This document shows positions 10,568 to 55,760 of a stretch of DNA of 64,000 nucleotides, one piece after another. A program made the translations under genes and the position numbers. The notes under the pieces are model-generated. The model was not told the origin of the DNA. It did no database searches and worked only from the letters and a program-made list of their open reading frames with translations. Source of the DNA: Amycolatopsis sp. FDAARGOS 1241 (GTDB lineage: Bacteria > Actinomycetota > Actinomycetes > Mycobacteriales > Pseudonocardiaceae). The DNA is taken from assembly GCF_016889705.1 (NCBI RefSeq), contig NZ_CP069526.1, positions 248,001 to 312,000 on the forward strand, in the 5' to 3' direction. The first letter of the stretch is position 1. The number at the start of each line of letters is the position of its first letter.

Positions 10568-10700
10568 GTTGTCCACAACTTGGCTCTCCTGTGGACAACC
10601 TGGCTGAGCGAGCCGTTTTGTCGGTGGGGGCCGATATACTGGACAAGGGCCGTCCCCCTGAGGTTGGGCGGGGGCTCGCTTGCTGGCGGGGTTGCCCGCG
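10568..10700 (+). repeat. dispersed paired DnaA-box element, copy A
   Basis: TTGTCCACA (10569-10577) and TGTGGACAA (10590-10598) are perfect inverted 9-mers with 12 bases between them. About 37 bases on lies the second module: TTTTGTCGGTGGGGGCCGA, TATACT (10635-10640) and a G/C-rich segment CCGTCCCCCTGAGG...GGGCGGGGGC. This copy is the most diverged in the second module. Confidence 0.8.
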
Positions 10701-10844
10701 ACAGCAGGGTTGGGCGCGGAAAGTTGTTGCGCTGCAACGAAGATCGGCCACTTGTGCGGTGAAGGACCGTAGGCAACGGAGTTCGGTTCTCAGCAGGCGG
10801 CGATCGGGCGCGATTTCTTGCCGGCGGCCGAATCCGGCTCGCGC

Positions 10845-12095
10845 ATGAGCACCCGCGTGAGTCTCCGGCGCGACCGGGACTTCCGTCTCGTGTGGACCGG
10901 CGAGACGATCAGCACCCTGGGCAGCGCGGTCGCCGGCACCGCGCTTCCCCTGACCGCCCTCCTGGTCCTCCACGCGACCACTTTCGAAGTCGCCGCGTTG
11001 TCGGCTGTCGCGTGGGCGCCGTGGCTGGTGGTTGCCCTGCCGGCCGGGGCGTGGGTGGACCGGTGGCGCAAGAGGCGCGTGATGCTGGTCTGCAACGTCG
11101 TCTCCGCGCTCGCCTTCGCGGCGGTGCCCGTCGCGTACGTGACCGGCCTGCTGTCCATGCCGTTCCTGCTCGCGGCGGCGCTCGTGGGTGGCGTCGCGAA
11201 GGTGTTCTTCTCCCTGGCCTACCGGGGGTACCTGCCGGCGCTCGTGCCCAAGGACCGGCTGCTCGAGGCGAACGTCAAGCTCCAGGGCAGCGAATCAGCC
11301 GCCCAGGTGGCGGGCCCGGGGCTCGCCGGGGTGCTCGCCGCCGCGGCGGGACCGGTGACGGGGGTGCTGGCGAACGCCGTCAGCTTCGCGATCTCCGTGC
11401 TCTGCCTGCACCGGGTCCGCAAGGAAGAACCGCGGCCCGAGCCGCGGAAAACCCGGCTCCGCACCGAAATCGCCGAAGGACTGCGGTTCCTGGCGAAAGA
11501 CCCGTACCTGCGCACGCTCGTCGCGGCCGCCGCGATCGCCAACCTCGCCCTCGACGGGTACGCCGCCATCCAGGTCGTCTTCCTCGTCGATGACCTCCAC
11601 ACCGGCGCGACGGCCACCGGCGTCGTCCTGGCCCTCGCCGAGGCCGGCGGAGTCGCCGGGGCGCCCCTCGCCGCCCGGCTGGCCAGGAAGGCCGGCACCG
11701 CGCGCGCCTTCCTCCTCTGCGAAGGACTCGCGGCGCCCGCGATGCTGCTCGGCCCGTTCGCGGCGCCCCGCGCCGGTCTTGTCCTCTTCATCCTGTCCGG
11801 CACGGGTGTCGCCGCCGGAATCGTCGGGTCGAACGTGCTCGCCGGCACCTTCCGCCAGGAGTACTGCCCACCCGGGCGCTACGGCCGCATCACCGCGAGC
11901 TCCGCCGTCGTCAACTACGGCACCATCCCGCTCGGCGCGCTCCTCGGCGGCGTGCTCGGCGAAGCGCTCGGCGTGCGCGAAACGCTCTTCGCGATGGCCG
12001 CGGTCCAGCTCGGCTCCCTCACGGTCCTGCTCACCAGCCCGCTTCGCCGCCACCGGGACTTCCCGGCGGCGGCAGCAGCTCAGCAACCCGGGTGA
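10845..12095 (+). CDS. MFS exporter (MFS_3/enterobactin-exporter-like)
   Basis: A 416-residue transporter with 12 predicted membrane segments. The loop between helices 2 and 3 carries the MFS motif A variant GAWVDRWRKRRVML. The first helix region (TLGSAVAGTALPLTALLVL) and the AYRGYLPALVPKDRLLEANVKL segment are typical of the MFS_3 group of proton-driven drug or siderophore exporters. ATG at 10845 is chosen; TTG at 10818 is possible and the ribosome site is weak. It pairs with the ArsR-type gene upstream. The substrate is unknown. Confidence 0.88.
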   Translation: MSTRVSLRRDRDFRLVWTGETISTLGSAVAGTALPLTALLVLHATTFEVAALSAVAWAPWLVVALPAGAWVDRWRKRRVMLVCNVVSALAFAAVPVAYVTGLLSMPFLLAAALVGGVAKVFFSLAYRGYLPALVPKDRLLEANVKLQGSESAAQVAGPGLAGVLAAAAGPVTGVLANAVSFAISVLCLHRVRKEEPRPEPRKTRLRTEIAEGLRFLAKDPYLRTLVAAAAIANLALDGYAAIQVVFLVDDLHTGATATGVVLALAEAGGVAGAPLAARLARKAGTARAFLLCEGLAAPAMLLGPFAAPRAGLVLFILSGTGVAAGIVGSNVLAGTFRQEYCPPGRYGRITASSAVVNYGTIPLGALLGGVLGEALGVRETLFAMAAVQLGSLTVLLTSPLRRHRDFPAAAAAQQPG

Positions 12096-12101
12096 CGGCC
12101 C

Positions 12102-12147
12102 CTACAACAGCAGCACGTCCACTTCCGCGCTTTCGGCGGCTTCCGTC
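12102..12147 (-). pseudogene. duplicated 3' end of moeA
   Basis: This 46-base stretch matches the last 46 bases of moeA (12178-12223) at 42 positions and reads on the minus strand as TEAAESAEVDVLLL followed by a stop, against TEAAEGSEVDVLLL in the gene. The offset of 76 bases rules out an in-frame extension. It looks like the scar of a tandem moeA copy or a recombination remnant. Confidence 0.8.
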
Positions 12148-12177
12148 GCAGCCCGTGGTGGTCGCTGCGTGAGCTCC

Positions 12178-13371
12178 CTACAGCAGCAGCACGTCCACTT
12201 CCGAACCTTCGGCGGCTTCCGTCACCTCCTCCGGCAACACGATCAGGCAATTGGCCTGCGTGAACGCGGCCAGCAGGTGCGAACCCGGCCCGCCGCGCGG
12301 CCCGACGACGCCGGTGACCTGGCCCTCCGTCGGCGTGTAGTAGCCGCGCCGGAACTGGCGCCGGCCGCCCGGCGACGTCATCGCCTCGGTCAGCCGCGCC
12401 CGCACGCGACGGCGGTCGAGCACCGTGTGCCCCATCGCCGACAGCAGCGCCGGGCGCAGGAACGCCTCGAACGACACCAGCACGCTCACCGGGTTGCCCG
12501 GCAGCGTCACCACGGGCACGCCGTTCCACCGGCCGCACCCCTGCGGCCCGCCGGGCTGGATCGCGACCTTCCGGAACTGGACGCCCTGCCCGGTCAGCGC
12601 GTCCTTGACCACCTCGTACGCACCGGCGCTGACGCCGCCCGACGTCACGAGCAGGTCGGCGTCCGCGAGCTTCGGCTCGATGATCTTGCGGAACTCCTCG
12701 ACGTCGTCCACCACGCTGCGCACCACCGCCACGCGGCAGCCCAGCTCGCGCAGCGCGGCGGCGAGCATGACGCTGTTGGACTCGTAGATCTGCCCGTGCC
12801 GCAACGGCTTCGGCGCTTCCACGAGCTCCGTGCCGGTCGACACGACGAGCACCGACAACGGCCGGTACACCTTCAGCTCGGCCAGCCCGACGGCGGAAGC
12901 GAGCCCCAGCTGGGAGTGGCCGAGCACGGTGCCGGCGTACAGCGCCACCGTCCCCTGCGTCACGTCCTCGCCGGTGCGGCGCACGTGGTCGCCCGCGGTG
13001 GCGGCCGTCGAGATCAGCACCTGCTCGGTGCCGCGGTCGGTGTCCTCGACCATCACGACGGCGTCGGCCCCCGGCGGGATCGGCGCGCCTGTCATGATCC
13101 GCTGCGCCGTACCCGGCTCCAGCGGCCGGACGTCCACGCGTCCGGCCGGGATGTCGTCGGCGACGGGCAGGGTCACGGGCACTGCGGCGACGTCGGCGGA
13201 GCGCACGGCGTACCCGTCCATCGCGGAGTTGTCGAACGGTGGCAGCGACACTCCCGCGAGCACGTCTTCGGCGAGGACGAGCCCGGCGGCGTCGGCCAGG
13301 GGCAGGGTGGTCACGGGCGCGCGGCCGAGCAGCTCGGTCACGGTCTCGCGATAGGCGTCGACGGAGATCAC
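12178..13371 (-). CDS. moeA: molybdopterin molybdenumtransferase MoeA
   Basis: A 397-residue enzyme that inserts molybdate into adenylylated molybdopterin, the last step of Moco synthesis. Family blocks are PPFDNSAMDGYAV, IMTGAPIPPGADAVV, VLVVSTGTELV, LLVTSGGVSAG and TLPGNPVSVLVSFEAF, in the normal order. The GTG at 13371 has GGGGGAGG at good spacing; ATG at 13380 sits directly against that run and is less likely. M. tuberculosis moeA2 is likewise near psd, pssA and groEL2. Partner moa genes lie at 60,110-64,000. Confidence 0.94.
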   Translation of the reverse strand: MISVDAYRETVTELLGRAPVTTLPLADAAGLVLAEDVLAGVSLPPFDNSAMDGYAVRSADVAAVPVTLPVADDIPAGRVDVRPLEPGTAQRIMTGAPIPPGADAVVMVEDTDRGTEQVLISTAATAGDHVRRTGEDVTQGTVALYAGTVLGHSQLGLASAVGLAELKVYRPLSVLVVSTGTELVEAPKPLRHGQIYESNSVMLAAALRELGCRVAVVRSVVDDVEEFRKIIEPKLADADLLVTSGGVSAGAYEVVKDALTGQGVQFRKVAIQPGGPQGCGRWNGVPVVTLPGNPVSVLVSFEAFLRPALLSAMGHTVLDRRRVRARLTEAMTSPGGRRQFRRGYYTPTEGQVTGVVGPRGGPGSHLLAAFTQANCLIVLPEEVTEAAEGSEVDVLLL

Positions 13372-13446
13372 GCGGACCATCCTCCCCCGCGCGCGCGGGC
13401 GTGCAACACTCTCCCGCGGCAAGAGTCGGGGTTCAGGGGAGAAGTC

Positions 13447-14124
13447 ATGCAGGTACAAGTGCGCCACCAGCCGTCGTTCGCGGTGGCGCGGCCGGAGCCG
13501 GCGCCGGGCGAACCCGTGCAGGTCGACGCGGGCGCGATGATGGCGACCAGCTACGGCGTGACCGTCCAGTCGCAGTCGCAGGGCGGGCTCATGACGGGCC
13601 TGGGCCGCTCGTTCCTGGAGGGCGAATCCTTCTTCATCTCCACCTTCACCGCTCCGCAGAACGGCGGCTGGGTCGCCGTCGCGGCCAACCTGCCCGGCGA
13701 CATCCAGACCGTGACCCTCGACGGCCGCACCGGCTGGTGCATCACGCAGGGCAGCTGGCTCGCCTCGTCGCACGGTGGGCAGACCGAGACGCGCTGGGGC
13801 GGCTTCAAGAACCTGGCCGGCGGCGAGGGCGGCTTCCTGCCCCAAGCCACGGGCCAGGGCCAGGTGCTCGTGTCCTGCTACGGCGGGCTCGACCTCATGA
13901 CGCTGCAGCCGGGCGAGGCCGTCACGATCGACACCGGTCACGTCGTCGCGTACGCCGACACCGTGCAGTATCAGGTCCGCAAGGTCTCGAAGGGCGTGAT
14001 CCAGTCGATGAAGAGCGGTGAGGGCCTCGTGTTCGACTTCGCCGGCCCGGGCCAGGTCCTCACGCAGACGCGTAACCCGTCTGCGCTGATCAGCTGGATC
14101 CTGTCCTCCGTCCCGTCCCGCTGA
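13447..14124 (+). CDS. AIM24 family protein, copy 1
   Basis: A 225-residue member of the AIM24/TIGR00266 family, proteins rich in beta strands with a double-layered helix fold. Characteristic text includes HQPSFAVARPEPAPGEPVQVDAG near the start, EGESFFISTFTAPQNGGWVAVA, and DTGHVVAYADTVQYQVRKVS with GEGLVFDFAGPGQVLTQTRNP at the end. The Shine-Dalgarno GGGGAGAA precedes the ATG. The next gene begins one base after its stop and is a paralogue. Biochemical function is not known for bacterial members. Confidence 0.88.
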   Translation: MQVQVRHQPSFAVARPEPAPGEPVQVDAGAMMATSYGVTVQSQSQGGLMTGLGRSFLEGESFFISTFTAPQNGGWVAVAANLPGDIQTVTLDGRTGWCITQGSWLASSHGGQTETRWGGFKNLAGGEGGFLPQATGQGQVLVSCYGGLDLMTLQPGEAVTIDTGHVVAYADTVQYQVRKVSKGVIQSMKSGEGLVFDFAGPGQVLTQTRNPSALISWILSSVPSR

Positions 14125-14125
14125 C

Positions 14126-14746
14126 ATGCGAGTCCACACGAGGCACACGCCCAACTTCGGCGTCGCGCGGGTGCTGCTGGCGCCCGGCGAGGCCGTGCAG
14201 TCGGCGGCCGACACGATGCTCGCGACCAGCTTCGGCGTGCGCGAGAGCGCGCCGCCGGCCCGCGGGGGCTCGCGCAAGCCCGGCCTGTCCGTGTTCACCG
14301 CGCCCGCCGAGGGCGGCTGGGTGGACCTCGCGCCGATCGGGCCCGGCGACGTCTACCCGCTGGAGCTCACCGGCACCACCGGTTGGTCGGTGCACCACGA
14401 CGCCGTGCTCGCGCGGCCCGCGTCGGTGCGCCACGACCAGGCCTGGGCGCCGTTGCAGCAGCTCTTCGGGTCCGACAGCGGGTTCCTCGACCACTACAGC
14501 GGTACCGGGCCGCTCGTGCTCACGGCGCCGGGTCCGGTCGACTCGTTCGAGCTGAAGCCGGGTGAGCTGGTGACGGTGCGGCCGGACTACGTGCTGGCCT
14601 ACCCGGACACGCTGCAGTGCCGGCTGCGCGCCGTCGACCCGAGCGGCCCGCAGTCGCTGCGGACGGGGGAAGGTCTGGTCCTCGATTTCGCCGGACCTGG
14701 CACCGTTCTGGTCCAAGCGCGGAACAGGCGGGTTTCGCGCGCCTGA
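14126..14746 (+). CDS. AIM24 family protein, copy 2
   Basis: A 206-residue paralogue of the preceding gene, aligned along its length: HTPNFGVARVLLAPGEAVQ, GLSVFTAPAEGGWVDLAP, VRPDYVLAYPDTLQCRLRAV and GEGLVLDFAGPGTVLVQARN. It lacks the central EGESFF segment and is shorter, so the copies have diverged. ATG is one base after the upstream stop, so the pair is one operon and may form a heteromer. No catalytic residues are recognisable. Confidence 0.86.
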   Translation: MRVHTRHTPNFGVARVLLAPGEAVQSAADTMLATSFGVRESAPPARGGSRKPGLSVFTAPAEGGWVDLAPIGPGDVYPLELTGTTGWSVHHDAVLARPASVRHDQAWAPLQQLFGSDSGFLDHYSGTGPLVLTAPGPVDSFELKPGELVTVRPDYVLAYPDTLQCRLRAVDPSGPQSLRTGEGLVLDFAGPGTVLVQARNRRVSRA

Positions 14747-14849
14747 CGAATCTCCGAATTGACCATTGCCGAAGTGCGTAATTCCGGTAGCGTGAACTGC
14801 ACTTCCAGCCGCTACCGGGAGAGCGGATCTTGTCCTGAGGGAGGGCGCC

Positions 14850-15056
14850 GTGGCTGTCGGCACCGTTAAATGGTTCAACTCGGAAAAAGGCTACGGCTTC
14901 ATCGAATCGGCGGAGGGTCCGGACGTGTTCGTCCACTATTCGGCTATCCAGGCCGAAGGATTCCGCACACTCGACGAAGGCGACCGCGTGGAGTTCGAGG
15001 TCCAGTCCGGCCGCGACGGGCGAAGCCAGGCCGCGGACGTCCGCAAGGTCTCCTGA
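14850..15056 (+). CDS. CspA-family cold-shock protein
   Basis: A 68-residue single OB-fold protein that binds single-stranded RNA or DNA. RNP-1 (KGYGFIES) and RNP-2 (DVFVHYSAI) are intact, and the N-terminus [15 protein letters not shown] is canonical. The GTG start follows GAGGGAGGGC. Expected role is RNA chaperoning and antitermination. It stands alone, with about 100 bases upstream available for a structured leader. Confidence 0.95.
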
Positions 15057-15125
15057 GTTCTCCTCGCCCGACCGGTTGGGCGAACCCCCCATCGCTGCGG
15101 ATTGCTGGGCGTTAAGCTGCGCAGC

Positions 15126-16739
15126 GTGACAGGCGATGTGTCGGGGGACCTCACCGGTCGCCGGCTGGGCAACTACCGCATCGACTCGGTGCTCGGCAAG
15201 GGCGGCATGAGCGTGACCTACGAGGCCACCGATGTGCGGCTCGGCCGGAAGGTGGCGCTGAAGGTCATCGGCGACCACCTGGGCACCGACGCCGAGTTCC
15301 GCGAGCGGTTCGTGGACGAAGCGCGCAACACGTCCGCGATCGACCACGCCAACATCGTGCCGCTGTACGACTTCGGCGAGCTCGACGGCATGCTCTACAT
15401 CGCCATGCGCATGGTCGACGGCGGCGACCTCGCCGGGCTCATCTCGTCGGGCCCGATCGCGCCTGCTCGAGCCCTGACCCTGCTCGACCAGGTCGCCGAC
15501 GCCCTCGACACCCTGCACAACCGCGGCCTGGTGCACCTCGACGTGAAGCCCGCGAACGTGCTCGTGACCAATCGCGAGACGTCCCGCGAACACGTCTACG
15601 TCGCCGACTTCGGTCTGACGCGCCGTGGCGCCACCGGTCACCGCACCCGCGGGGGCGACTTCCTCGGTTCCCCGACGTACGCCGCGCCCGAGCACCTGCG
15701 CGGCGAGCCGCTCGACGGGCGCACCGACCAGTACGCCCTCACCTGCGTGCTCTACGCGTGCCTCACCGGCAGCCCGCCCTTCAAGGGCGACGTGCCCACG
15801 GTCATCAAGGGCCACCTCAACGGCGAACCGCCCTCAGTGGCGCGTGTGGTCGCGCTGCCGTCCGCCGTCGACGACGTCATCCGCAAGGGGATGGCGAAGA
15901 ACCCGGCCGACCGCTACCCGAGCTGCGTCGCGATGATCGCCGCCGCCCGCACCGCCCTCGGCCCGCTCGCGACGTCTGACACGCCGCCAGGCCCGCCGGG
16001 CACCCAGCAGAACGGACCGCCCGCGCCGGTGCAGGGGGAGGGAACCGCCGCGCAGCCCTTCGGCGGACGGCAGCCCTACGCCCAGAGCGGACCGGGGAGC
16101 AACGGTGGCGGTCAGTGGCCGGGTGCTCCCGGTGCGCCGGGTGGGCAAGGCACTCCCGGGCCTCCGGGTGCGCCCGCTGGGCCCGCTGGTCCGGGTGTCC
16201 CTGGTGGACCGGGTGCGCCGGGTGTCCCCGGTGGACAACGCGCTCCTGGTGTCCCGGGTGGACAGGCCGCGCCCGGTGTGCCGGGTGCGCCCGGCGGGTG
16301 GCCGGGAGCACCGCAGAACCCAGCCCAGGCTCCGCCGCTCGGTTACGGCTACCCCGGCGCGCCGCAGGGCCCCCAGGGCCATCCCGGCTACGGCTACCCG
16401 AACCGGCAGCAGGGCTACTCCGCCGTGCCGCCGGGCTACGGCCCGCCCGGTGATCCGATGCGCCTGCGCCCGCCGTCACCGGCCGGCGGGGCCGGAACGT
16501 TCCAGCAATCCCGCGGCGGCGAGCTGAAGTGGCTGTGGCTCGTGCTGGGGATCGTCGTGATCGCCGGCCTGGTCGTCGGCGCGATCTTCCTCTTCGGCGG
16601 TGATGACTCCGGCGGCGGCACCACCACGCCCACCACCGCCCCGAACATCCCCGTCGGCCCCGACGGCTCGCAGCCCAACGCGCCCGGGTCGTCCCTCAAC
16701 GCCCCTCCGACGTCGATCCCCATCCAGCCGAGCCGTTGA
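15126..16739 (+). CDS. membrane Ser/Thr protein kinase with collagen-like linker
   Basis: A 537-residue PknB-class kinase. Residues 15-285 form the kinase domain, with glycine loop GKGGMS (24-29), K46, E65, HLDVKPAN (H137, D139, K141, N144), DFG (161-163) and YAAPE. The usual HRD arginine is Leu (HLD), so this is a non-RD kinase. Residues 295-450 are Pro/Gly-rich with Gly-x-x triplets (GAPGVPGGQRAPGVPGG), then one membrane helix (about 470-490) and a short Thr/Pro extracellular tail without PASTA repeats. The GTG start at 15126 is chosen for the kinase N-terminus. The signal sensed and the substrates are unknown. Confidence 0.9.
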   Translation: MTGDVSGDLTGRRLGNYRIDSVLGKGGMSVTYEATDVRLGRKVALKVIGDHLGTDAEFRERFVDEARNTSAIDHANIVPLYDFGELDGMLYIAMRMVDGGDLAGLISSGPIAPARALTLLDQVADALDTLHNRGLVHLDVKPANVLVTNRETSREHVYVADFGLTRRGATGHRTRGGDFLGSPTYAAPEHLRGEPLDGRTDQYALTCVLYACLTGSPPFKGDVPTVIKGHLNGEPPSVARVVALPSAVDDVIRKGMAKNPADRYPSCVAMIAAARTALGPLATSDTPPGPPGTQQNGPPAPVQGEGTAAQPFGGRQPYAQSGPGSNGGGQWPGAPGAPGGQGTPGPPGAPAGPAGPGVPGGPGAPGVPGGQRAPGVPGGQAAPGVPGAPGGWPGAPQNPAQAPPLGYGYPGAPQGPQGHPGYGYPNRQQGYSAVPPGYGPPGDPMRLRPPSPAGGAGTFQQSRGGELKWLWLVLGIVVIAGLVVGAIFLFGGDDSGGGTTTPTTAPNIPVGPDGSQPNAPGSSLNAPPTSIPIQPSR

Positions 16740-19142: not shown

Positions 19143-20014
19143 GCCATGAATACTCCGCCCGGCGGCCGCTGGGCACATCGGGGAACGCCCCGGAGACCAA
19201 CCCTGGACTCCGACCCCGAGACCACCTCGGGGAAATCCGGATGCCCGGGTGTCGAGCGCCCAGCCGGCGCCGTAGCGCACTCCTGCCTGGACTCCGAAGA
19301 CCACAGTTCTGCGCCGGTCCCTCCACGGACACCGGTCGCCGGCTGTACCCAAGACCTGTCTGCGCGTCCGGTTGGTTGCGCCGTCGGCCCAGCCGGGCCC
19401 GCACCTCCGCCGTACTTGTTTTCGGCTGCGTTCGCACTCCGCCTGCGCCCCGACCTCGACTGTGCCGCAAAATCGCTGGCACCTTCGATCTCGCCGCCGG
19501 CATTGCCTGTCGCAGATGCGCCCGATTTCGGGCCACCGTAGGTGGGCACATCGCTACCGACCACACCCCCAAGCGGCGCCGCGCGTCAGTCCATCGCTCG
19601 ATGGCCATCCACAGCCCAACCGAGTTGTGGACAAATCGACTGCGCTGCAGGAGATTCTCAAGAACTGTCGGCGTTGGCCAGTAGAATGGACATGGGACGC
19701 CCCCTCAGGGAGGGCGGGGGCATGTCCGGGCCGCCGCCGGGGCAGGGGCTCCGGCAAGCGCGGCGTGGCCTCTCATTGTGCGGGCGTCGCGGCACTGTTC
19801 GGGCGAGCTGGCGAAAGACCCGCCGTGCCCGGGGCATCACTACGGGCCGTCGTCGTGGTCCGGTTCCGCTCGGTTCCGGCGGCGCGGTCGTGCCACGCGT
19901 GCCGAGGCCGCTGCGGGACGGTTCGCGTATGTGCCGCGCCGTTGCCCGAGGAGCCCGACGAGGAGTGGGCCGACGACTTCCTCGTCCGCGCGCACCTGGC
20001 GTACTGGGCGTGAG
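19143..20014. other. 872-base gene-poor gap
   Basis: No convincing gene lies here. The gap contains copy B of the dispersed element. A plus-strand frame ends at 20,013 in an acidic tail (PLPEEPDEEWADDFLV) that looks protein-like, but what precedes it is not. A decayed small gene is possible. Confidence 0.6.
19605..19740 (+). repeat. dispersed paired DnaA-box element, copy B
   Basis: CCATCCACA (19605-19613, a weak box) and a perfect TGTGGACAA (19626-19634) are 12 bases apart. After 47 bases come TAGAAT (19682-19687) and GGACATGGGACGCCCC, then the G/C hairpin CCCCTCAGGGAGGGCGGGGG. Confidence 0.85.
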
Positions 20015-25185: not shown

Positions 25186-25947
25186 TCATGCCCATGAGAA
25201 CTTCCACCGGCGGGACTGCACGAGGGTGCTCGCGTACTCCCGCAGGTTTCCGGGCTGCGACAGGTACGTGGGCAGGCTGAAGGCGCGGTGCTCCGCGGCG
25301 ACGGTAAGCGCCCGCGCCAGCGTGCGGGGCGGCGCGGAGACGGACAGCTCGAGCGAATCGAACCCCATCGACAGCAGCGTGGCGCCGAAGCGGTCCTCCC
25401 AGCTGCGGAGGACGGCGGACAGCTCCGCGACCTGGTCGGTGGACTTGATCATGCCCGTCCAGCCGAGGAGGGCGGGAACGTCGGCCGGGCGGTCGGTCTG
25501 GACCAGGCCGAGGCGGTGCGGCGCGCGGGCCGCCAGGATCGAACCCGTGTTGCCGGCCTCGGCGAGCGGGTCGGCGCGGCGGTGGGTGCGGCGGGCGAGC
25601 CCGGGAAAGCGGGCGCCGAAGGGGCGCAGGCACGCGCCGTCGCAGCAGGAGGTGTCCCACCACCGCGCCAGGGCCGCCGCGGGGTCCGCCGAGTCGATCC
25701 GGTGCCCGGCCGGCGCGAGGCGGCCGCGGTCGTCGAGCCAGTCCTCACCGCGCGCGGCGAATCGCTGGTCGTGCGGGATGAGAACGGGCCAGAGGCCGGA
25801 GCGCTCGAACTCGGCCACGCACGCCAGGTATCGCTGCGGCTGCGAGAGCGGCTCGTCGGACACCCAGATCCGCCCGTGCCACCTCCCGGGCGGCAACGTC
25901 TGGACCGGCGGTGCGCCGACGCTGGGGCGGAACGGAGCGATCGTCAT
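25186..25947 (-). CDS. DUF4253 domain protein
   Basis: A 253-residue cytosolic protein. The C-terminal half (LLGWTGMIKSTDQVAELS, FGATLLSMGFDSLELSVSA, AAEHRAFSLPTYL, and the final RRWKFSWA) fits the DUF4253 family, common in actinomycetes and without known function. The N-terminal half (RYLACVAEFERSGLWPVLIP) is also found in longer family members. ATG has the ribosome site GAGGGGAAG. It has 161 bases of open leader to the XPB-side gap and no operon partner. Confidence 0.82.
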   Translation of the reverse strand: MTIAPFRPSVGAPPVQTLPPGRWHGRIWVSDEPLSQPQRYLACVAEFERSGLWPVLIPHDQRFAARGEDWLDDRGRLAPAGHRIDSADPAAALARWWDTSCCDGACLRPFGARFPGLARRTHRRADPLAEAGNTGSILAARAPHRLGLVQTDRPADVPALLGWTGMIKSTDQVAELSAVLRSWEDRFGATLLSMGFDSLELSVSAPPRTLARALTVAAEHRAFSLPTYLSQPGNLREYASTLVQSRRWKFSWA

Positions 25948-26472
25948 GAGCTTCCCCTCGAACTGGTGTTCGGTCCTGCTTGTCGAACAGTAGTTCGAGG
26001 GGCCGACAATTTCCAGGGGTTTGCTCGCTCATCCGTTCGAGTGAATCGAGAAAAGTGCAGGTCGGAGGTACTCCTGTGACACATGGGGCGATTGGGCCGG
26101 ATGGGTAGTCGAAAAGGCCGGCGACGGGCGGGCAGGGAGCGCCCGTTGTCCACAGGGCGGTCGGGTTGTGGACAGGCAGCCTCTCGGCCGGCGTGGCCGG
26201 CGGCTGATCGTTCACCATGGGCTTGACCAGCGGTGGAGCCCGCGGCGGATCATCGGCAGCCGGCGCGATCCCCCCGGCCAGTTTGGGTGACGGGTGACGT
26301 CCGAAACGATCTACCAAGCCCGCAGATCCGCCGGCGGCCGCACCCACTGCGCTGCGCGACGCGCTCGTCGCGAAGAGCGCGACCCTGCCCAGACAGCCAC
26401 AGCGCCGGCTGACTGACCTGGGGCCAGAGCGGCGAAACGCATCTGCACGGCAGGTCCGGGGCGAACCCGCCC
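25948..26472. other. 525-base gap between DUF4253 and XPB genes
   Basis: No gene is supported on either strand. The gap must hold the DUF4253 promoter at its left end and the 3' end of the XPB transcript at its right. It carries one paired DnaA-box motif (26146-26175). Confidence 0.7.
26146..26175. repeat. dispersed paired DnaA-box element, copy C (boxes only)
   Basis: TTGTCCACA (26146-26154) and TGTGGACAG (26167-26175, one mismatch) are inverted with exactly 12 bases between them. The TAGAAT/hairpin module seen in the other copies is not found on either side. Confidence 0.8.
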
Positions 26473-39889: not shown

Positions 39890-40009
39890 AAGCCCCCGCC
39901 CTCCCGAGGGGGGCGTCCCCACGTCCATTCTATCGGCCACCACCGACAAAACCGGGTCGGAAGCCGGGTGAGGGCTGAGCTGTCCACAACTCGCCTGCTC
40001 TGTGGACAA
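39890..40009 (-). repeat. dispersed paired DnaA-box element, copy D
   Basis: Read on the minus strand: TTGTCCACA (40001-40009), 12 bases, TGTGGACAG (39980-39988, one mismatch), 47 bases, then TAGAAT (39927-39932) within GGCCGATAGAATGGACG, and the G/C hairpin CCCCCTCGGGAGGGCGGGGG. It fills the left part of the 659-base gap after the DUF397 gene. Confidence 0.85.
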
Positions 40010-47633: not shown

Positions 47634-50630
47634 GTGAACCCGTCACGAAGGGGTTCGGTCTTCGCGCTGAACAACTGGCGGCTTCGGTCGAAGCTCGCCC
47701 TCGTTCTGATCATCCCGACGCTGACCGCGCTCGTGCTCGGTGCGCTGCGCGTGGTGGACGACGCCCGCGAGGCCGTGCAGTTCGGCCACACCGCGGACCA
47801 GGTCGCCTTCGCGGTAAAGGTGACCACGGTCATCCACGACCTGCAGGGCGAGCGGACGCTCGCGGTCGCGCGGCTCTCCTCCGGCGACTCCTCGCGCCAG
47901 ACCGGGCTCGACGCCCAGATCGCGAAAGTCGACCGCGACGTCGACGACCTGCGCAACGCGCTCGTGAACCTCAACCCCGACGACCAGGCGACCAGCGACC
48001 GGTACGCCCGCGGCATCCAGCGCCTCGACGCGCTGCGCCCGCTGCGCGCGGCCACCAGCTCCTCGTCCTACTCCGACGTCGCGGTGCTCGACACGTACTC
48101 GTCGATCCTGGACTCGCTCATCCAGCTCGGCCGCGAAGTGACCACCGCGGTCACCGACCGCGACTTGCTGAGGCTGGGCAACAGCACGCAATCCATCAGT
48201 GAGGCCAAGGAGTTCACGCTCCGCGGCGACACCGCGCTCGAGATCGCGGCGTTCCGCAACGGCTTCCCGGGCGACCTGCTGGACCAGACCCGCTCCGCCG
48301 AGGCGAGCGGTGACGCGTCGATCGCCTCGTTCCTCGCGAACGCCACCGACGACCAGGTGCAGCTTTACTCCGACACCGTGTCGGGCCCGGAGGTTGACGA
48401 CCGGCGCCGGATCCAGAAGCAGGCCTTCTCGTTCGCGCAGCAGGGCGAATCGCTGAACCTCGATCCGACTCGGCTCGCGCAGGACAGCACCGTCGCGTCG
48501 GACAAGATGCGCGCGGTGGAGTCGAACCTGCTCACGCAGCTGCGCACGCAGGCCGACGACCTGGCCAGCTCGGCCGTCCGCTCCGCGTGGGTCGGCGGGG
48601 TGATCGTCCTCGCGGCCCTGATCGCGGCGCTGGTCCTGATGCTCGTGGTCGCCCGCCTCATGCTACGCCCGCTGCGCGTGCTGCGGACAACGGCGCTCGA
48701 CGTGGCCTACACGCGGCTGCCGGAAACGGTTCAGTCCATTCTGGACGATCCGGATCCGGTCAACGCCTCGAAGAAGGCCGTGGACCCGGTTCCGGTCGTC
48801 TCGCGTGACGAGATCGGTGAAGTGGCGCGCTCGTTCGACGTGGTCCACGAACAGGCCGTCAAGATGGCCGCCGAACAGGCTCTCCTGCGCGAGAACGTCA
48901 ACGGCATCTTCGTGAACCTCTCCCGGCGCTCGCAGCGGCTGGTGGAACGCCAGCTCGGCGTGATCGACCGCCTCGAGGCCGACGAGCAGGACCCGGACCA
49001 CTTGGCGAGCCTGTTCGAGCTCGACCACCTCGCGACGCGGCTGCGGCGCAACGGCGAGTCGCTGCTGGTGCTCTCGGGTGCCGGCCTCGCGAAGTCCGTG
49101 CCCAAGCCCGTGCCCGCGGCCGACGTGATCGGCGCCGCGGTGTCCGAGATCGAGCAGTACGCCCGCATCGAGGTCGGCATCGTGCCGGAGGTCGCCGTGC
49201 AGGGCCTCGCGATCCACGACCTCGTGCACGTGCTCGCCGAGCTGCTCGACAACGCGACCTACTTCTCCGAGCCGGAGACGAAGGTCACAGTGCGGGCCGT
49301 GGTGACTCGCAAGAAGGCGCTCGCCATCCAGATCACCGACCACGGTGTGGGCATGGCCGAGGACCGGCTCGCCGAGATCAACCAGCGCCTGGCCGACCCA
49401 CCGGACCTCGACGTCTCGGTGACGCGGCGGATGGGTCTGTACGTGGTCGCGCGACTGGCCCAGCGCCACGGCATCGAGGTGCGGCTGCGCGAGAACGAGG
49501 ACATCGAAGGTGGCGTGATCGCCCGCGTGGTCGTGCCGGCCGAGCTGCTCACGCAGCTGCGCCCGAACACCGTCGCGCCGCGGCAGACGCCGCCGCTGAA
49601 CCGCAACGAGATCTCGCACCCGAGCCTGCCGCCCCTCAACCGGCAGATCGAGTCGACGCCACCGCCTCCCGCGCAGTCGGCGCCGCCGGCGCCCCCGCCC
49701 GTGCCGGCGCAGTCGAACGGCGGCCTCGTACCGCTCGACCAGCCGATCAGCCTTGACGACCTCGTGGCCGGGAACCGCGCGGCCGGGCCGTTCCTCAGCC
49801 CCGAAGCGGCGCTGCCGGAAGCCCCGGCGTGGCCGACGGCCGAAGACCTGGCCCCGCTCACCCAGCAGTCCAACGGGGACGGTGCGAGCCTGGCGGAGAC
49901 CGAGTTCCCGCCGCTGGTGCTCCCGAAGCGCGAACCGAAGTACGTCGCGCCGGAGGAGCCGAAGCGGGAGGAACCGGCCGTGGACGACGGCGCGTCGGCC
50001 CTCGAGGACGACGTGCCCACCCGGCGCCTGCCGATCTACCAGTCGGTGCTGTCGCGGTGGTTCAGCGAAGGCAGTGAAGACGGCGAGTCCGGACCGAGCG
50101 CAGCGCTCGACGAGTTCGCCGTCCCGGCGCCCTCCGAGAGTGCCGCCGAGCCGAACGCAGCGACCGAACCGGCGGCACCGGAGGCCGGCAGCCCGGACGA
50201 GAGCCGTGAGGAGGAGCCGAGCGAAGCCACGCCGCTCTACCCCGGTTCCGAGGACGGCTGGAGCAGCGCCTCCGACGAGGGCTGGCAGGCCGCGCAGTCG
50301 CTGCTCGAGAACAGGGCCGAGGAGATGACGCCGGCGGGCCTGCCCAAGCGGGTGCCCAACGCCTACCTCGTGCCGGGCTCGATCGGCAGCCGGCCGGCAG
50401 CGGGGGAGCAGCAGAATTCGTTCACGGACGCGACTGCCGGTCTGCCCGGAACGGGTGCTATCACCCGCTCGGCTGCCGCGGCCCGCAACCGGATGGCAAG
50501 CTTCCAGCGTGGGTACACCTCCGGACGGCACGCTCTGCAGGAGCGGCCGGCCGATGCCCGGCTCGACGAGGATGGCGTCCGGGTCACCGGAGCCGGGTAT
50601 GTGAGCGACAGCAGTGAGGAGCGACAGTGA
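47634..50630 (+). CDS. cvnA: conservon sensor histidine kinase CvnA
   Basis: A 998-residue membrane kinase with two membrane helices (about 20-40 and 318-340) around a NIT-like extracellular helical domain. A HAMP-like segment follows, then [13 protein letters not shown] with the phosphoacceptor H465, HATPase_c motifs [10 protein letters not shown] and DHGVGM, and a 330-residue Pro/Glu-rich disordered tail. The GTG at 47634 has GGAGG; GTG 47502 is possible. It is the first gene of cvnABCD. No response regulator gene is present. CvnA kinases instead work with the CvnB-C-D GTPase module. Confidence 0.91.
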
Positions 50631-51100
50631 CACGGGCGGGTGCAGTGCAGCCGGGGGGCGGCTCGGCGCCGAACGGCAGGGCTTCGGCCGGCGCGGCGGG
50701 CAGCTTCGCGTGGCTGATCACGGACTTCGTCCACCGCGTGCCCGGGGCGGCGCACGCGGTGGTCGTTTCGGCCGACGGGCTGCTGCTCGCGGCTTCGCGG
50801 GGGCTGCCGAAGGACCGAGCCGACCAGCTGGCGGCCGTCGCGTCCGGGCTGACCAGCCTGGCGCGCGGTGCGGCGAAGGTGTTCGAAGGCGGCCCGGTCG
50901 CGCAGACCGTGGTCGAGATGGCCAACGGCTTCCTCTTCCTGATGTCGGTCTCCGACGGCTCGTGCCTCGCGGTGCTGGGCGCGCCGGACAGCGACATCGG
51001 GCTCGTGGTGTATGAGATGACGCTGCTGGTCGAACGCGTCGGCCAGCAGCTGACACCGGAGATGCGTGCGCAACTGCAGGGCGCTGCGATCCGCCGCTAG
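50627..51100 (+). CDS. cvnB: conservon roadblock/LC7 protein CvnB
   Basis: A 157-residue roadblock/LC7 domain protein. The block [35 protein letters not shown] and [20 protein letters not shown] is typical of CvnB. The GTG start overlaps the cvnA stop (GTGA). Roadblock proteins regulate small GTPases; CvnB is thought to bridge kinase and GTPase at the membrane. A close paralogue is at 52874. Confidence 0.93.
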
Positions 51101-51127
51101 GCGGATCGGGAACTTCAGGAGCAAACC

Positions 51128-51892
51128 GTGGACGACGGGCGCTTGAGGGGCGATGGCCGCCTCGGTGACGACAACACCGGTGGCTGGGCCGAGCGGGACG
51201 AGGGCCGGGAGGACTGGAAGTCCTTCCGGGACCGGGTGGACCGCGAGTGGCGTGCCCGGCGCGCCACGGGATCCGACGCGGACCCGGTGCGGGAGCCTCC
51301 GAACTGGCTGACGGACTCCAACGCCGGGCAGCAGCCGATCACCGGCGAGTACCGCGACCGCCTCCTGGGCGGTCCGGGCGCCGAGCTGTTCGGCGGGTCG
51401 AGCGGCCCGCTGTACGACTCCGCCGAGTTCGCGGCGTTCTCCGCCGCGCGCGACGGCTCGCCGGGCCCGTCGTCGAACGAGCTCTCGGCCGCGCTGCCGC
51501 TGCAGGCCGCGGGCGAGTTCGTGGACGAACCGCCGGTCGCCGAGGTCGAGACGTCCGGGCTCGTGCGGCCTTACTTCCGCACGCGCGGGCGGACGAAGCC
51601 GACCTACGACCTCGCGATCGAGGCATTGGTCTCGACCAGCGAACAAGGGCGCGTGCTCGACCGCGTGCGCGTGCCCGAGCACCGGTCCATCTGCGATCTG
51701 TGCATCGACACCCGGTCGGTGGCCGAGGTGGCGGCGCTGCTGCGCCTGCCGCTCGGCGTCGTGCGGGTGCTCATTGGTGACGTGGCGGGTCTCGGACTGG
51801 TGCTGGTGCACACGACCACCAGCACGACCTCGGGCGACCGCCCCAGTATCGAGTTCATGGAAAGGGTGCTCAGTGGGCTTCGGAGAATTTGA
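51128..51892 (+). CDS. cvnC: conservon DUF742 protein CvnC
   Basis: A 254-residue protein. The C-terminal 110 residues are the DUF742 domain (VRPYFRTRGRTKPTYDLAIE, HRSICDLCIDTRSVAEVAAL, RLPLGVVRVLIGDVAGLGLV), a winged-helix-like fold. The N-terminal half is charged and low in predicted structure (DDGRLRGDGRLGDDNTGGW). GTG start. Its 3' end overlaps the cvnD start by 20 bases, so the two are coupled. Confidence 0.92.
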   Translation: MDDGRLRGDGRLGDDNTGGWAERDEGREDWKSFRDRVDREWRARRATGSDADPVREPPNWLTDSNAGQQPITGEYRDRLLGGPGAELFGGSSGPLYDSAEFAAFSAARDGSPGPSSNELSAALPLQAAGEFVDEPPVAEVETSGLVRPYFRTRGRTKPTYDLAIEALVSTSEQGRVLDRVRVPEHRSICDLCIDTRSVAEVAALLRLPLGVVRVLIGDVAGLGLVLVHTTTSTTSGDRPSIEFMERVLSGLRRI

Positions 51893-52481
51893 CTCCGACG
51901 CGAACACACCGCAGGTGACGGGTCCGACCTCGTCGGCCAAGATCGTGGTCGCGGGTGGGTTCGGTTCGGGCAAGACGACACTGGTCGGAGCGATCTCGGA
52001 GATCGACCCGCTGACCACCGAGGCCATGATGACCGAGGCGAGTGTCGGCACCGACGACACTTCCGCCACGCCGAACAAGATGACCACCACGGTGGCCATG
52101 GACTTCGGCCGCATCTCGCTGGACTCGGACCTCGTGCTGTACGTGTTCGGCACGCCGGGTCAGCACCGGTTCTGGTTCATGTGGGACGACTTGGCCGTCG
52201 GCGCGATCGGCGCCGTGGTGCTGGTGGACACGCGGCGGCTCGCCGACGCGTTCCCCTCCATCGACTTCTTCGAGAACCGGAAGCTGCCGTACGTGGTCGC
52301 GATCAACTGTTTCGACCGCTTGCTGCATCACCAGATCGAGGACGTGCGGCACGCGTTGACGATCTCCCCGTCGGTGCCGATCATGGCGTGCGACGCTCGC
52401 GAACGGGACTCGGCCAAGCAGGTGCTGATCTCGGTCGTGCAGCACGCGATCGCCCACGACACGGCACTGCGGGCAGGCTAG
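51873..52481 (+). CDS. cvnD: conservon small GTPase CvnD
   Basis: A 202-residue Ras-like GTPase with G1 GGFGSGKTT, G3 FGTPGQHRF in place of DxxG, and G4-like NCFD instead of NKxD. The weak G4 is usual for CvnD (MglA-like) proteins. GTG 51873 is inside the end of cvnC. It completes a four-gene conservon, proposed to act like a eukaryotic GPCR switch in controlling development or secondary metabolism. Confidence 0.93.
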   Translation: MGFGEFDSDANTPQVTGPTSSAKIVVAGGFGSGKTTLVGAISEIDPLTTEAMMTEASVGTDDTSATPNKMTTTVAMDFGRISLDSDLVLYVFGTPGQHRFWFMWDDLAVGAIGAVVLVDTRRLADAFPSIDFFENRKLPYVVAINCFDRLLHHQIEDVRHALTISPSVPIMACDARERDSAKQVLISVVQHAIAHDTALRAG

Positions 52482-52873
52482 AACCCGAGTACCCGGGGCC
52501 GGGTGCGGCCGTTGGAGTGAACTCCACGTGCTTCACCCGCTTCGGGGAGTGGTGCCTTCGACCGGAGTAGGGCTGCGGTGGTGCTCTTCGGTACGGTCGG
52601 GGCCGGCAACGCCCGAACGGGCAGCCGGAACGCCGGTGACCTGCGCGGACATCCCACTGCGTACCGTTGCCGACGCCACCACCGAGTGATCCACGCATGC
52701 GTGGTCCTCGGTGGGTCCGCGCGGTGTGCGTTCGCGTGCGCACGCACAGTGCGCGGTGCTCGACGGACGCGGGCTCGACAGTGTCGGGCGGGTGAATACG
52801 CTGGAACGGCGTCTTCACGGCCGCCCGGTGATCATGGCGGAGCTCGGCGGTGTTCGACCGGTTTGGAGGAGCA
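52482..52873. other. 392-base gap between two conservon units
   Basis: No gene is supported. A perfect 14-bp palindrome TGGAGTGAACTCCA lies at 52513-52526. Whether the second cvnB has its own promoter here or depends on readthrough cannot be told from the sequence. Confidence 0.55.
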
Positions 52874-53293
52874 GTGACCGTTTCCGGCCAGGAGAGCCAG
52901 TTCGGCTGGCTGATCACGGACTTCGTGCGCCGGGTGCCCGGTGCCGCCCACGCCGTGCTGGTGTCGGCCGACGGCCTGCTGCTCGCACCGTCCGAGGGGC
53001 TGCCGGGGGACCGCGCGGAGCAGCTGTCGGCCGTCGCGTCGGGCCTCGTGAGCCTCACGCAGGGCGCGGCCCGCTGCTTCGAGGCCGGTGGTGTGAACCA
53101 GACCGTGGTCGAGATGGAGCTCGGGTACCTGTTCCTGATGTCGGTGTCGGACGGGTCTTCGCTGGCCGTGCTGGCCGCGCCCACGTGTGACATCGGGACC
53201 GTCGCGTATGAGATGACGCTGCTCGTGGAGCGCGTCGGCCAGCAGCTCACGCCCGAGCTGCGCGCCCGGCTCCAGGGCGGGGTGCGTGGGTAG
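52874..53293 (+). CDS. cvnB: second conservon roadblock/LC7 protein
   Basis: A 139-residue roadblock/LC7 protein, GTG start after GGAGGA. It is closely related to the first CvnB over its whole length ([60 protein letters not shown]). It shares an operon with the following DUF742 gene, three bases on. No kinase or GTPase of its own is nearby, so it may exchange with the first CvnB or work with the orphan kinase at 29,997. Confidence 0.92.
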
Positions 53294-53296
53294 TAG

Positions 53297-55093
53297 ATGA
53301 AGATCTCCGGTTTCGGCGAGCAGGACACGAGTGCCTGGGACGCGCTGCACAAGGGCACCGATCGCGAGAACTTCGATTCGCCCAGCCACTACGAGCTGAG
53401 CACGCTGAAGACGATGCTGCCGCACCGGCGGCCGTCGCCGCCGCCTCCGCCGGCACCTGAGCCGGACATGCGGGAATGGTCTGGTTCTGCTGCCGCTGCT
53501 CCCGGGGCTGCTCCCGCCGAGTACGACGAAGACGACGGCTACGAGTGGGTCGAGGACGGCGAGTCCGGCTACTGGGAGGAAACGGGCTCCTCGTCGGGCT
53601 ATTACGACACGGAGTCCTACCTCACGCACGACGACCGCCAGGTCCCGGAGGACTCCGCGTACGGCCGCCGCCACCTCACCGCGGTGGACGATTCGCAACC
53701 CGAGTACTACCGCGATCCGGCGACGGAGCCTTCGGGTTACCCGGCGGCCACGGGGTACCGGCACGCTGCTGACTCGGGTGAGGTATACGGGTCGGGCTAT
53801 TACGCGACGCCGCCGGCCGAGGCGGCTGATGCGTCGGGTTATTACGGTGCGAGGTCGACCGGTGCGTCGGCTCATCACGAGGCGCGATCTGCTGAATCTG
53901 TTGACGCGTCCGGGTATTACGCGATGCCGGCTGCTAAATCGGTGGATGCGTCGGGCTACTACGCTGCGCGGCCAGGTGAATCGGCTGATGAGTCTGGTTA
54001 TTACGCGACGCGGTCGGCGGGATCGGGCCAAGCGTCTGGTTATGACGTAGCACCGTCTGCCGAATCGGCTGGTGTATCTGGGTATTACGCGACGTCGTCT
54101 GCGGAGCCGGGGTATTACTCGGCGCGGTCTGCGGACACGGCTATTGCGTCTGGTTTCCACGCGGTCTCTTCTGGGGAATCGGCTGGTGCGTCGGGTTTTG
54201 GTGCTGCGCGGTCCGCCGAGCCGGTTGGTGGGTTTGGTTCGCATGTTGCGTCGGCTGATGAGCCGGGGTATTACTCGGCACGGTCTGCAGAACCGGCGGC
54301 TGCGTCCGGATACGCCGCCGCCTCCGATGCCGACCCAGGTGACGAATACGCCTCGAGCTACCGCGCCGCGCCGCCGGCGGCCTCGGGTGAGGCGTACGCG
54401 TCCGGCTACTACGCCACGCCGTCCGCCGAGTCCTACAAACCCGCCGAGCCGACCGGCCGGCACGCCGTTGTGGAGCGGACCACCGAACCGAACCGCCGGA
54501 GCGAACCGAGCCGTCGCCACGCGGCCGTCGACACCGCCGACCGTGAATCCGGCTACCACCCCACGCCCGCGGACGTCGGTTACCTGCCCCCGGCCGACGG
54601 CCAGCACCGGCTCGCCGAGCCGCGCGAGCGCACCACGCCGCGTCCGTCGGGTCGACGCCGCGCGCCGGAAACCGTTGCGGCGCAAGAGGAAACGTACGCC
54701 GAGCCGACGTCGTGGCCCGAGCCGCCGCGCGCGGCGCCGCCGCCTGCGAAACCGGCGAAGTCGCGGGTGCGCCCGTACGCCCGTACCCGCGGCCGCACGC
54801 GCTCGGACCACAACCTCGCCCTCGAAGCCCTGGTCTCCACCAGCGACGACGGCCGCCGCTACCGGGGCGTGCGCTCCATCGAGCACCGGCGGATCTGCGA
54901 CCTCTGCCTGGACACCCGGTCGGTCGCCGAGATCGCCGCGCACCTGCACCTGCCGCTGGGCGTGGTGAAGGTCCTGGTCGGCGACATGGCCGATATCGGC
55001 CTCGTCCTGATCCACCAGACCGACCTCGTCCTGGGCGACCGCTCGTCGCGCGAGTTCATGGAACGGGTGCTGCAGGGTCTGCGCAACCTCTGA
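53297..55093 (+). CDS. cvnC: giant CvnC: DUF742 protein with a Tyr/Ser/Ala repeat region
   Basis: A 598-residue protein, more than twice the usual CvnC length. The C-terminal 108 residues are a normal DUF742 domain (VRPYARTRGRTRSDHNLALE, HRRICDLCLDTRSVAEIAAH). Before it stand a Pro-rich stretch (48-56), an acidic Tyr-rich stretch (75-110) and about 14 units of a 14-residue repeat, consensus SGYYATRSAESADA (residues 165-375). The repeat DNA is T-richer than its flanks. The region is probably disordered and aromatic-rich. No CvnD gene follows. Confidence 0.9.
   Translation: MKISGFGEQDTSAWDALHKGTDRENFDSPSHYELSTLKTMLPHRRPSPPPPPAPEPDMREWSGSAAAAPGAAPAEYDEDDGYEWVEDGESGYWEETGSSSGYYDTESYLTHDDRQVPEDSAYGRRHLTAVDDSQPEYYRDPATEPSGYPAATGYRHAADSGEVYGSGYYATPPAEAADASGYYGARSTGASAHHEARSAESVDASGYYAMPAAKSVDASGYYAARPGESADESGYYATRSAGSGQASGYDVAPSAESAGVSGYYATSSAEPGYYSARSADTAIASGFHAVSSGESAGASGFGAARSAEPVGGFGSHVASADEPGYYSARSAEPAAASGYAAASDADPGDEYASSYRAAPPAASGEAYASGYYATPSAESYKPAEPTGRHAVVERTTEPNRRSEPSRRHAAVDTADRESGYHPTPADVGYLPPADGQHRLAEPRERTTPRPSGRRRAPETVAAQEETYAEPTSWPEPPRAAPPPAKPAKSRVRPYARTRGRTRSDHNLALEALVSTSDDGRRYRGVRSIEHRRICDLCLDTRSVAEIAAHLHLPLGVVKVLVGDMADIGLVLIHQTDLVLGDRSSREFMERVLQGLRNL
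53789..54421 (+). repeat. 42-bp degenerate tandem repeat inside cvnC2
   Basis: About 14 units of roughly 42 bp encode SGYYA-type repeats. The units are diverged at the DNA level (several Gly/Ala codon choices differ) while keeping Ser-Gly-Tyr-Tyr, so the protein pattern seems to be under selection. Third positions include many T, unlike the rest of the gene. Confidence 0.82.
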
Positions 55094-55119
55094 GCCGGCA
55101 GCGGGTGCTGTCGGAGCCC

Positions 55120-55415
55120 GGCGTGCGCTGTGGGCTGTCGACCACGAGTGTCGCGAGTGCGGCGGTGCTTCTTCTCGTCCGTGTCCAGCGGGGTTTCGTC
55201 GATGAGGGTGTCTTGGACGAGGCGGGCCAGTCGAGGTCCGCGCGCAGCACGCCGGCTTCCTGCGCGCGCCGGAACAGCCGCACGCACGCCTCGCGTACCT
55301 TCTCGTGGACCCGCACGACCTCGCGGCTTGCCGACGGCGCCCGGCTCATCATGAACACCGTCCGCACCGGCCTCGCCCGGCTCCTGGACCACGACGGCGT
55401 AACGGTTTCCCACAT
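55120..55415 (-). pseudogene. TetR-family C-terminal remnant
   Basis: From 55415 the frame reads VRTVFMMSRAPSASREVVRV and HEKVREACVRLFRRAQEAGV, LRADLDW, typical of the effector domain of TetR regulators. Near 55228 it shifts to a second frame, RLARLVQDTLIDETPLDTDE. The DNA-binding half is missing. It looks like a decayed regulator gene. Confidence 0.6.
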
Positions 55416-55617
55416 CGCCCACCCACCTCGACGTCGCCTGCGCACCTGGACATCAAGGTGGACACGGAGACTCTCGCGGCTCCGGACCGCCTCTTCCCGG
55501 CCTCGGGCCGACCACCACGAACCCCGCTCCGGATACCTCCGGCTGACTGGTGCTCTCAGCTTTCCCATGCCGCCACGCTGCCACACCCGGTCGGCAACCC
55601 GCGGCCACTTCGGCCGG

Positions 55618-55760
55618 TAGTCCACAGGCTGCCCGAGTTGTGGACAACTGCCGCCTGATCTGCTGTATTTGCCGGGACCGTCGGCGGCGGCCGGTAGAAT
55701 GGGCATGGGACGCCCCCCTCGGGAGGGTGGGGGTTGTCTGCCCGGCCCGGGGCTGCCGGC
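55618..55760 (+). repeat. dispersed paired DnaA-box element, copy E
   Basis: TAGTCCACA (55618-55626) and TGTGGACAA (55639-55647) are inverted with 12 bases between. After 47 bases come TAGAAT (55695-55700), GGGCATGGGACGCCCCCC and the hairpin arm TCGGGAGGGTGGGGG. The rest of the 580-base gap from 55416 to 56000 shows nothing else. Confidence 0.85.

Follow-up and report, generated by a model that had tools for sequence, protein, structure and literature searches.

The window analysed here is a stretch of 64,000 nucleotides (C1:248001-312000) from the 9.8-Mb genome of Amycolatopsis sp. FDAARGOS 1241, labelled G000 in the following. It contains five copies of an intergenic element built on an inverted pair of DnaA boxes (referred to below as the dyad), which is in most cases followed by a second module (module 2) comprising a promoter-like -10 region and a C-run/G-run. 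The element is best read as a non-coding unit of about 120 bp, in which an asymmetric inverted-box pair would be followed by a promoter and then by a GC-rich C-run/G-run. On balance, we favour the interpretation, drawn from sequence comparisons, that these units are DnaA-controlled non-coding promoters, often of the PafBC type, that would at the same time serve as a sink for DnaA.

An earlier sequence-only reading of the window had reported five inverted-box pairs with a fixed spacer, and all five are indeed found where it placed them, with a spacer of exactly 12 bp and with 0, 3, 1, 1 and 1 mismatches per pair. Chance is not a plausible source of this arrangement, as shuffled windows contain on average 0.01 dyad matches and the whole genome has 44 dyads at no more than two mismatches compared to none in the reversed control. 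The spacing is fixed in this genome, because the perfect pairs found genome-wide with the spacer left free between 0 and 30 number 18, exactly as many as the zero-mismatch pairs at a spacer of 12; an analogous search in relatives also returned a few other spacings. The half-sites meet the consensus TTGTCCACA, which we take to be the preferred actinobacterial DnaA box, so that binding of DnaA is predicted from the sequence match. Perfect boxes occur 153 times in the genome, compared to 28 occurrences of the reversed word, and 58 of the 153 (as counted from the dyad list) lie inside the 44 dyads. Two pairs of perfect boxes in direct orientation, 18 bp apart, were also encountered (G000:C1:46257/46275 and 528159/528177).

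Module 2 accompanies four of the five copies in the window, the exception being the copy at 26146. The distance of 37-48 bp proposed for it by the sequence-only reading is right when measured from the end of the dyad to the -10 hexamer (37 bp in the copy at 10569 and 48 bp in the other three), with GTCGG starting 22 or 33 bp from the dyad end. The same reading had regarded the module as not coding, and we agree, because insertions and deletions occur between the -10 region and the C-run and most of the downstream genes are opposed in orientation.

The arrangement of the two parts follows a strict rule. Among 47 aligned dyads (at most three mismatches, from the loci retrieved), 35 are associated with module 2 in one of two layouts, in which TTTTGTCGG follows the dyad after either 27-29 bp or 17 bp. 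The dyad spacer is asymmetric, with CGAG adjoining one box only, and the dyad flips its orientation with the distance class: the distance to TTTTGTCGG is 27-29 bp in all 22 cases with CGAG towards the module and 17 bp in 11 of the 13 cases with CGAG away from it, the two exceptions being an orientation tie (27) and a case with a further dyad close by (70). A model restricted to module 2, built from 23 of 34 prepared sequences after the 11 more divergent ones had been removed by hand, has 59 matches in this genome at E≤0.01, the best of them (86.4 bits) being the promoter of window copy 4. Of the 57 matches examined (all except those at positions 2726901 and 9552756), 40 lie beside a dyad with up to four mismatches, and in each of these 40 the dyad precedes the G(G/A)TA of the -10 region by either 34 bp (12 copies) or 43-46 bp (28 copies).

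The rule extends to relatives. Excluding this genome and counting orthologous copies individually, a -10 core with the C-run/G-run is found at 63 of 81 dyads with no more than two mismatches (18 are without it), and all 63 complete copies have 34-35 bp (35) or 45-46 bp (28) to G(G/A)TA, with no such combination at any other distance within the 85 bp scanned on each side. A set of named copies, comprising 80 of 97 stretches in a named collection that match the dyad together with TAGAMTGG and all belonging to Amycolatopsis, has 36-37 bases to TAGA in 50 copies and 47-48 in 30, with none between, in a search that allowed 30-48; the two sets overlap in species and both include orthologues. Even the bases beside the boxes tend to differ between the classes, being A...C in 27 of 35 copies of the shorter class and G...T in 21 of 28 of the longer class in relatives, and following the same pattern more loosely among the named copies (30 of 50 and 11 of 30, respectively). 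Eleven bases correspond to one helical turn, as expected for a bound protein that has to approach RNA polymerase from a single side. The 34/45-bp rule makes a sharp prediction, open to falsification, that there is contact with RNA polymerase. Variant copies exist that either carry a pair of direct boxes separated by about 30 bp and lack TGTCGG, or retain a single good box; direct-box variants with a similar -10 region and C-run/G-run are located at G000:C1:9241210, 5884717, 1404548, 8391718 and 9126098.

Matches to the element are concentrated in the genus. The module-2 model matches all 36 genus members searched, including this genome, with 1 to 67 matches each, and only one of 24 genomes outside the genus, weakly. 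All 14 genus members searched for the dyad at no more than one mismatch have it, as do 20 of the 65 other family members and three of 318 genomes outside the family, the split into these categories having been made by hand. The other family members have 1-3 copies each, apart from one genome of another genus (G173) with 13 dyads at this threshold, far above the rest of the sampled non-genus genomes.

Loci from five genus members form orthologous groups with approximately 84-97% identity, which we used to compare the conservation of the individual parts in 35 pairwise comparisons from nine of ten aligned groups (a group with an 11-bp spacer was omitted, and two further groups were not aligned). 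The -10 region plus hairpin is identical at 1667 of 1851 positions (90%), compared to 2693 of 3822 (70%) in the upstream flank, 343 of 420 (82%) in the dyad spacer and 981 of 1259 in the interval between the dyad and the -10 region. The bases of both boxes are invariant (315/315 and 315/315), but this proves nothing by itself, because the loci were selected for two perfect boxes; the contrast between the -10 region plus hairpin and the flank is independent of that selection. In the omitted group, a single orthologous locus represented in three species (L169, L187 and L195), the dyad has an 11-bp spacer and the -10/hairpin module is absent.

The promoter part of module 2 resembles the promoters controlled by PafBC, whose motif is also called RecA-NDp. 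The consensus is given in the literature as tTGTCRgtg-8-TannnT (PMC5656591) or TGTCGG-10N-TA-3N-T (PMC8151990), and single-stranded DNA is described as the activator of PafBC (PMC11804915). The best copies of module 2, with the form TTGTCGGTG-N8-TAGAAT, fit the PafBC consensus exactly; in the window, copies 1, 2 and 4 conform to TGTCGG-N10-TAnnnT and copy 5 deviates by one mismatch. The extended motif TTGTCGG-N10-TAnnnT occurs 42 times in the genome and twice in the reversed control. Seven of the 30 loci retrieved out of the 42 are elements, and among the same 30 the motif precedes recA, dinB, radA, genes for a RarA-like AAA ATPase and a DnaN-like protein and, at a distance of 228 bp, the gene for the Pup-proteasome ATPase. 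With these proteins shortened to 330 residues, NCBIfam assigns RecA, DNA polymerase IV and the proteasome ATPase above the cut-off and RadA, the DnaN-like protein and the RarA-like ATPase below it, leaving one of the seven proteins without a family. The genes for PafB, PafC and PafA lie close together in this genome. The elements share with the LexA-independent damage promoters of mycobacteria the TGTCGG-N10-TAnnnT motif, the presence of PafB and PafC and, in this genome, the occurrence of the motif before recA. They differ in that they are mostly directed towards the 3' end of the gene that follows, add a DnaA dyad at a fixed upstream phase, have a C-run/G-run at the predicted transcript start and have lost the motif in part of the family. 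Judged from sequence, PafBC-promoter membership accordingly holds for a part of the family only.

The pairing of likely DnaA sites with a damage-type promoter at rigid spacing suggests that the control of replication may be connected with the signalling of damage. From the observed motifs, their spacing, conservation and distribution, and the presence of the PafBC genes, we infer a course of events that extends from DnaA binding and transcription to the sign of the regulation, a role of the RNA and a phenotype. DnaA on the dyad would be held upstream of RNA polymerase on a constant side of the helix and set the activity of the promoter; if transcription begins some 12 bp downstream of the first -10 base, the dyad centre would lie near -63 or -74. 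PafBC charged with single-stranded DNA would fire the promoter where TGTCGG is intact, yielding, in place of a protein, an RNA that begins with a GC-rich segment. Copies on the origin side may together constitute an early-replicated store of high-affinity DnaA sites, with titration as a side effect.

The gene context is consistent with a non-coding product. Genes of this genome were called with our own caller based on codon usage, and of the 56 copies classified (one overlapping copy was set aside), 28 are located between convergent genes, 12 are codirectional, 11 opposed (including two copies with no upstream gene called) and five divergent, so that 39 face the 3' end of the gene ahead of them and 17 a codirectional gene. 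Convergent placement prevails even more in the named set, with 58 of the 80 copies convergent, 13 codirectional, two opposed, one divergent and six unclassified; an opposed gene lies ahead of 60 of the 74 classified copies. As a background, 67 of 482 element-free gene pairs are convergent (125 of 556 when element-bearing pairs are included). The element is thus not mainly a promoter of protein genes. In the named copies the opposing gene ends at a median of 26 bp past a point 30 bp beyond the -10 core, and because that gene ends so near, the hairpin may double as its terminator; in this genome the following gene is further away (median gap 534 bp). K-mer counts and reading by eye revealed no sequence common to all downstream regions, and small groups of copies do share downstream sequence. 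One such group is found at G000:C1:1460773, 4032701 and 6857908 and another at 2011828, 2040872, 7662240, 7667247 and 7965291 of the same contig, both with long stretches in which no genes are called. Short tandem repeats follow immediately after the hairpin in L025, L023, L034, L037 and L149, apparently starting with its 3' arm. The flanking genes in relatives, as read by eye, have no common theme. The orientation of the elements relative to replication has a weak apparent bias by hand count.

The location of the elements along the chromosome bears on a different explanation, namely that their dyads titrate DnaA passively near the origin, the promoter and hairpin being incidental or acting as an insulator or terminator beside convergent genes. 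The dnaA gene was located in this genome and in 40 of 40 genus members. Among the exactly 12-spaced dyads listed for eight genomes (G012 and G014 were left out), 32 of 44 dyads in this genome lie within 30% of the half-genome from dnaA, as do 39 of 48 pooled from seven relatives, including ten of ten in both G031 and G020. Isolated perfect boxes, represented by the first 100 of the 153, are unbiased over the same range, with a mean of 0.52 versus 0.32 for the dyads. The elements thus accumulate near the origin in the way expected of titration sites, and a study of Escherichia coli reports such an accumulation of boxes to be favourable for titration (PMC12371093). The enrichment of perfect boxes, the existence of dyads that lack a promoter and the convergent location of the copies fit the same explanation. 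Clusters of DnaA boxes outside oriC, such as titration sites and datA, indeed share with the elements high-affinity boxes, intergenic location and the origin-side bias, but the elements are many small two-box units with a fixed spacer and mostly linked to a promoter. Titration requires no fixed 12-bp spacer, no phasing at 34/45 bp and no 90% conservation of the -10 region plus hairpin, and we therefore regard a purely passive role as doubtful. A perfect 9-mer box is situated about 124 bp before the predicted start of dnaA. The gap downstream of this gene (G000:C1:9187020-9188276), probably the dnaA-dnaN interval and the presumed oriC, contains seven one-mismatch boxes and no perfect one, including three copies of TTGCCCACA at 56-bp intervals (scan at no more than one mismatch).

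Some copies have evidently arisen by duplication. Two copies 638 bp apart have a 117-bp stretch in common (93% identity), and two other neighbouring copies share 202 bp (96%), with the similarity breaking off no more than 2 bp from where the distal box ends on its outer side; these were the only two loci compared against themselves. These two local duplications with sharp edges indicate that the unit is at times duplicated, which is what is expected of a miniature inverted-repeat transposable element (MITE) or a repetitive extragenic palindromic (REP) sequence copied as a discrete unit. A non-autonomous repeat of this kind, spreading and tolerated between convergent genes, would also account for the spread of 1 to 67 module-2 matches among genus members, and the elements resemble REP sequences, the related bacterial interspersed mosaic elements (BIME) and MITEs in being short, dispersed, equipped with a C-run/G-run hairpin, often located between convergent genes and occasionally duplicated. 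They differ from them in keeping orthologous positions and in the conservation of the boxes and the -10 region, and no terminal inverted repeats were spotted by eye in the aligned elements, no dedicated search having been made. Many copies in the subclade tested were inherited in place, the same loci being occupied in several species while their flanks drift, which weakens the notion of a purely mobile element and makes this explanation unlikely. An origin from phages was likewise rejected, as the exact dyad is absent from viral contigs.

The sequence-only reading had left three options for the element. The small DnaA-responsive promoter is the best supported of them, by the match to the PafBC consensus and by the two phased distances; titration of DnaA is retained as a companion effect, indicated by the origin-side placement and the box enrichment; and a purely mobile nature of the element is weakened by the orthologous conservation, although the unit can be copied. 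That reading had also considered whether the sequence is just the conserved 5' end of DUF222/HNH (13E12) genes. We reject this possibility, since the genome has no match to PF02720 and neither the dyad nor module 2 occurs at 29 DUF222 loci of relatives (L115-L143, one per genome; L144 was outside the scan). There is some likeness in that at least three DUF222 loci from other families of the order have a similar TGTCGG...TAnnnT upstream, noticed on one strand in the first 2000 bases and followed up by eye. The number of DUF222 matches in the genus members G000-G035 ranges from 0 (this genome) to 31 and seems high where the element is scarce.

Two further explanations concern the protein that would act on the dyad or the consequence of its binding. 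The rigid inverted spacing of 12 bp is of a kind that we consider typical of dimers, and the dyad might accordingly be the site of another dimeric regulator reading TTGTCCACA. We deem this highly improbable: the half-site equals the DnaA consensus as we know it for actinobacteria, a strict dimer would reject the variants with direct boxes or one good box, and the perfect 9-mer also occurs before dnaA. The boxes in opposing orientation are, on the other hand, shared with the DnaA-reactivating sequences DARS1 and DARS2 of E. coli, and the elements could be scattered DARS- or datA-like sites that act on the nucleotide bound by DnaA and not on transcription. Only two DARS loci exist in E. coli, DARS2 with sites for IHF and Fis, whereas here there are tens of copies with a promoter attached, and such a role seems very unlikely.

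Several observations weigh against the interpretation that we favour. Most of the motif sites that are not part of an element lie before genes without an obvious role in damage, or lack a codirectional gene. TGTCGG is exact in 16 of the 80 named copies and matches in at least five of six positions in 36; it is missing in the direct-repeat copies of this genome, and many copies in the subclade used for the comparison of orthologues have a degenerate PafBC motif. Because TGTCGG is not universal, control by PafBC cannot define the whole family. Good dyads are lacking at 17 of the 57 module-2 matches, and at the score applied module 2 is not seen beside 12 of the 47 aligned dyads (the model matches three of them, one only at E 0.12); considering also the 18 of 81 dyads from relatives, each part may act alone. 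The energy of the hairpin hardly beats that of mononucleotide shuffles (mean z -0.63, 19 of 57 below -1), making hairpin strength unconvincing as evidence by energy alone, and covariation is weak (one of eight pairs). Finally, the origin bias is not significant in two of the eight genomes (G034 and G029) and may partly reflect the conserved core genes near the origin. Short tandem repeats follow immediately after the hairpin in L025, L023, L034, L037 and L149, apparently starting with its 3' arm.

Table 1. Positions of the element copies and associated motifs in the window.
Feature	Positions	Strand	Basis
Copy 1, dyad, 0 mismatches, 34-bp class	10569..10598	+	motif scan
Copy 1, PafBC-type promoter TTGTCGG-N10-TATACT	10618..10640	+	motif scan
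Copy 1, C-run/G-run, possible hairpin in predicted transcript	10653..10675	+	alignment
Copy 2, dyad, 3 mismatches, all in distal box, 45-bp class	19605..19634	+	motif scan
Copy 2, promoter TGTCGG-N10-TAGAAT	19666..19687	+	motif match
Copy 2, C-run/G-run	19698..19721	+	alignment
Motif TTGTCGG-N10-TACTGT near copy 3	25987..26009	-	motif scan
Copy 3, dyad, 1 mismatch, without module 2	26146..26175	+	motif scan
Copy 4, C-run/G-run	39892..39915	-	alignment
Copy 4, promoter TTGTCGG-N10-TAGAAT	39927..39949	-	module-2 model and motif scan
Copy 4, dyad, 1 mismatch, 45-bp class, minus-strand element	39980..40009	-	motif scan
Copy 5, dyad, 1 mismatch, 45-bp class	55618..55647	+	motif scan
Copy 5, promoter CGTCGG-N10-TAGAAT, one mismatch to TGTCGG	55679..55700	+	motif match
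Copy 5, C-run/G-run	55711..55733	+	alignment

The coordinates of the copies in the window are summarized in table 1. The motif near copy 3 lies 39 bp before a predicted minus-strand gene (25186-25947), with a spacing unlike that of the element. No relevant Rfam family was detected in the window at the gathering threshold or in nine loci at E≤5. A thiamine pyrophosphate (TPP) riboswitch at 2743-2874 on the minus strand, beside the minus-strand gene 1106-2749, barely exceeds its gathering score (54.9 versus 54.3 bits).

We did not find a description of such an element in the literature searched, the coverage of which was partial, with subscription journals mostly outside it. Within the same limits no link between DnaA and PafBC was found, and the papers holding both words carry neither of them in the title or abstract.

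If our interpretation is correct, DnaA and PafBC would be placed on one promoter, and initiator titration together with initiator-controlled transcription would become directly testable in actinobacteria, with the 1 to 67 module copies per genome providing a natural series for such tests. More tentatively, we can envisage a genus-wide circuit in which up to dozens of origin-side units per genome would join DnaA occupancy, as a measure of replication state, and PafBC charged by single-stranded DNA, as the damage input, on one face of the helix and deliver non-coding RNA and DnaA sequestration rather than a protein as the output, tuning the initiation of replication to damage.

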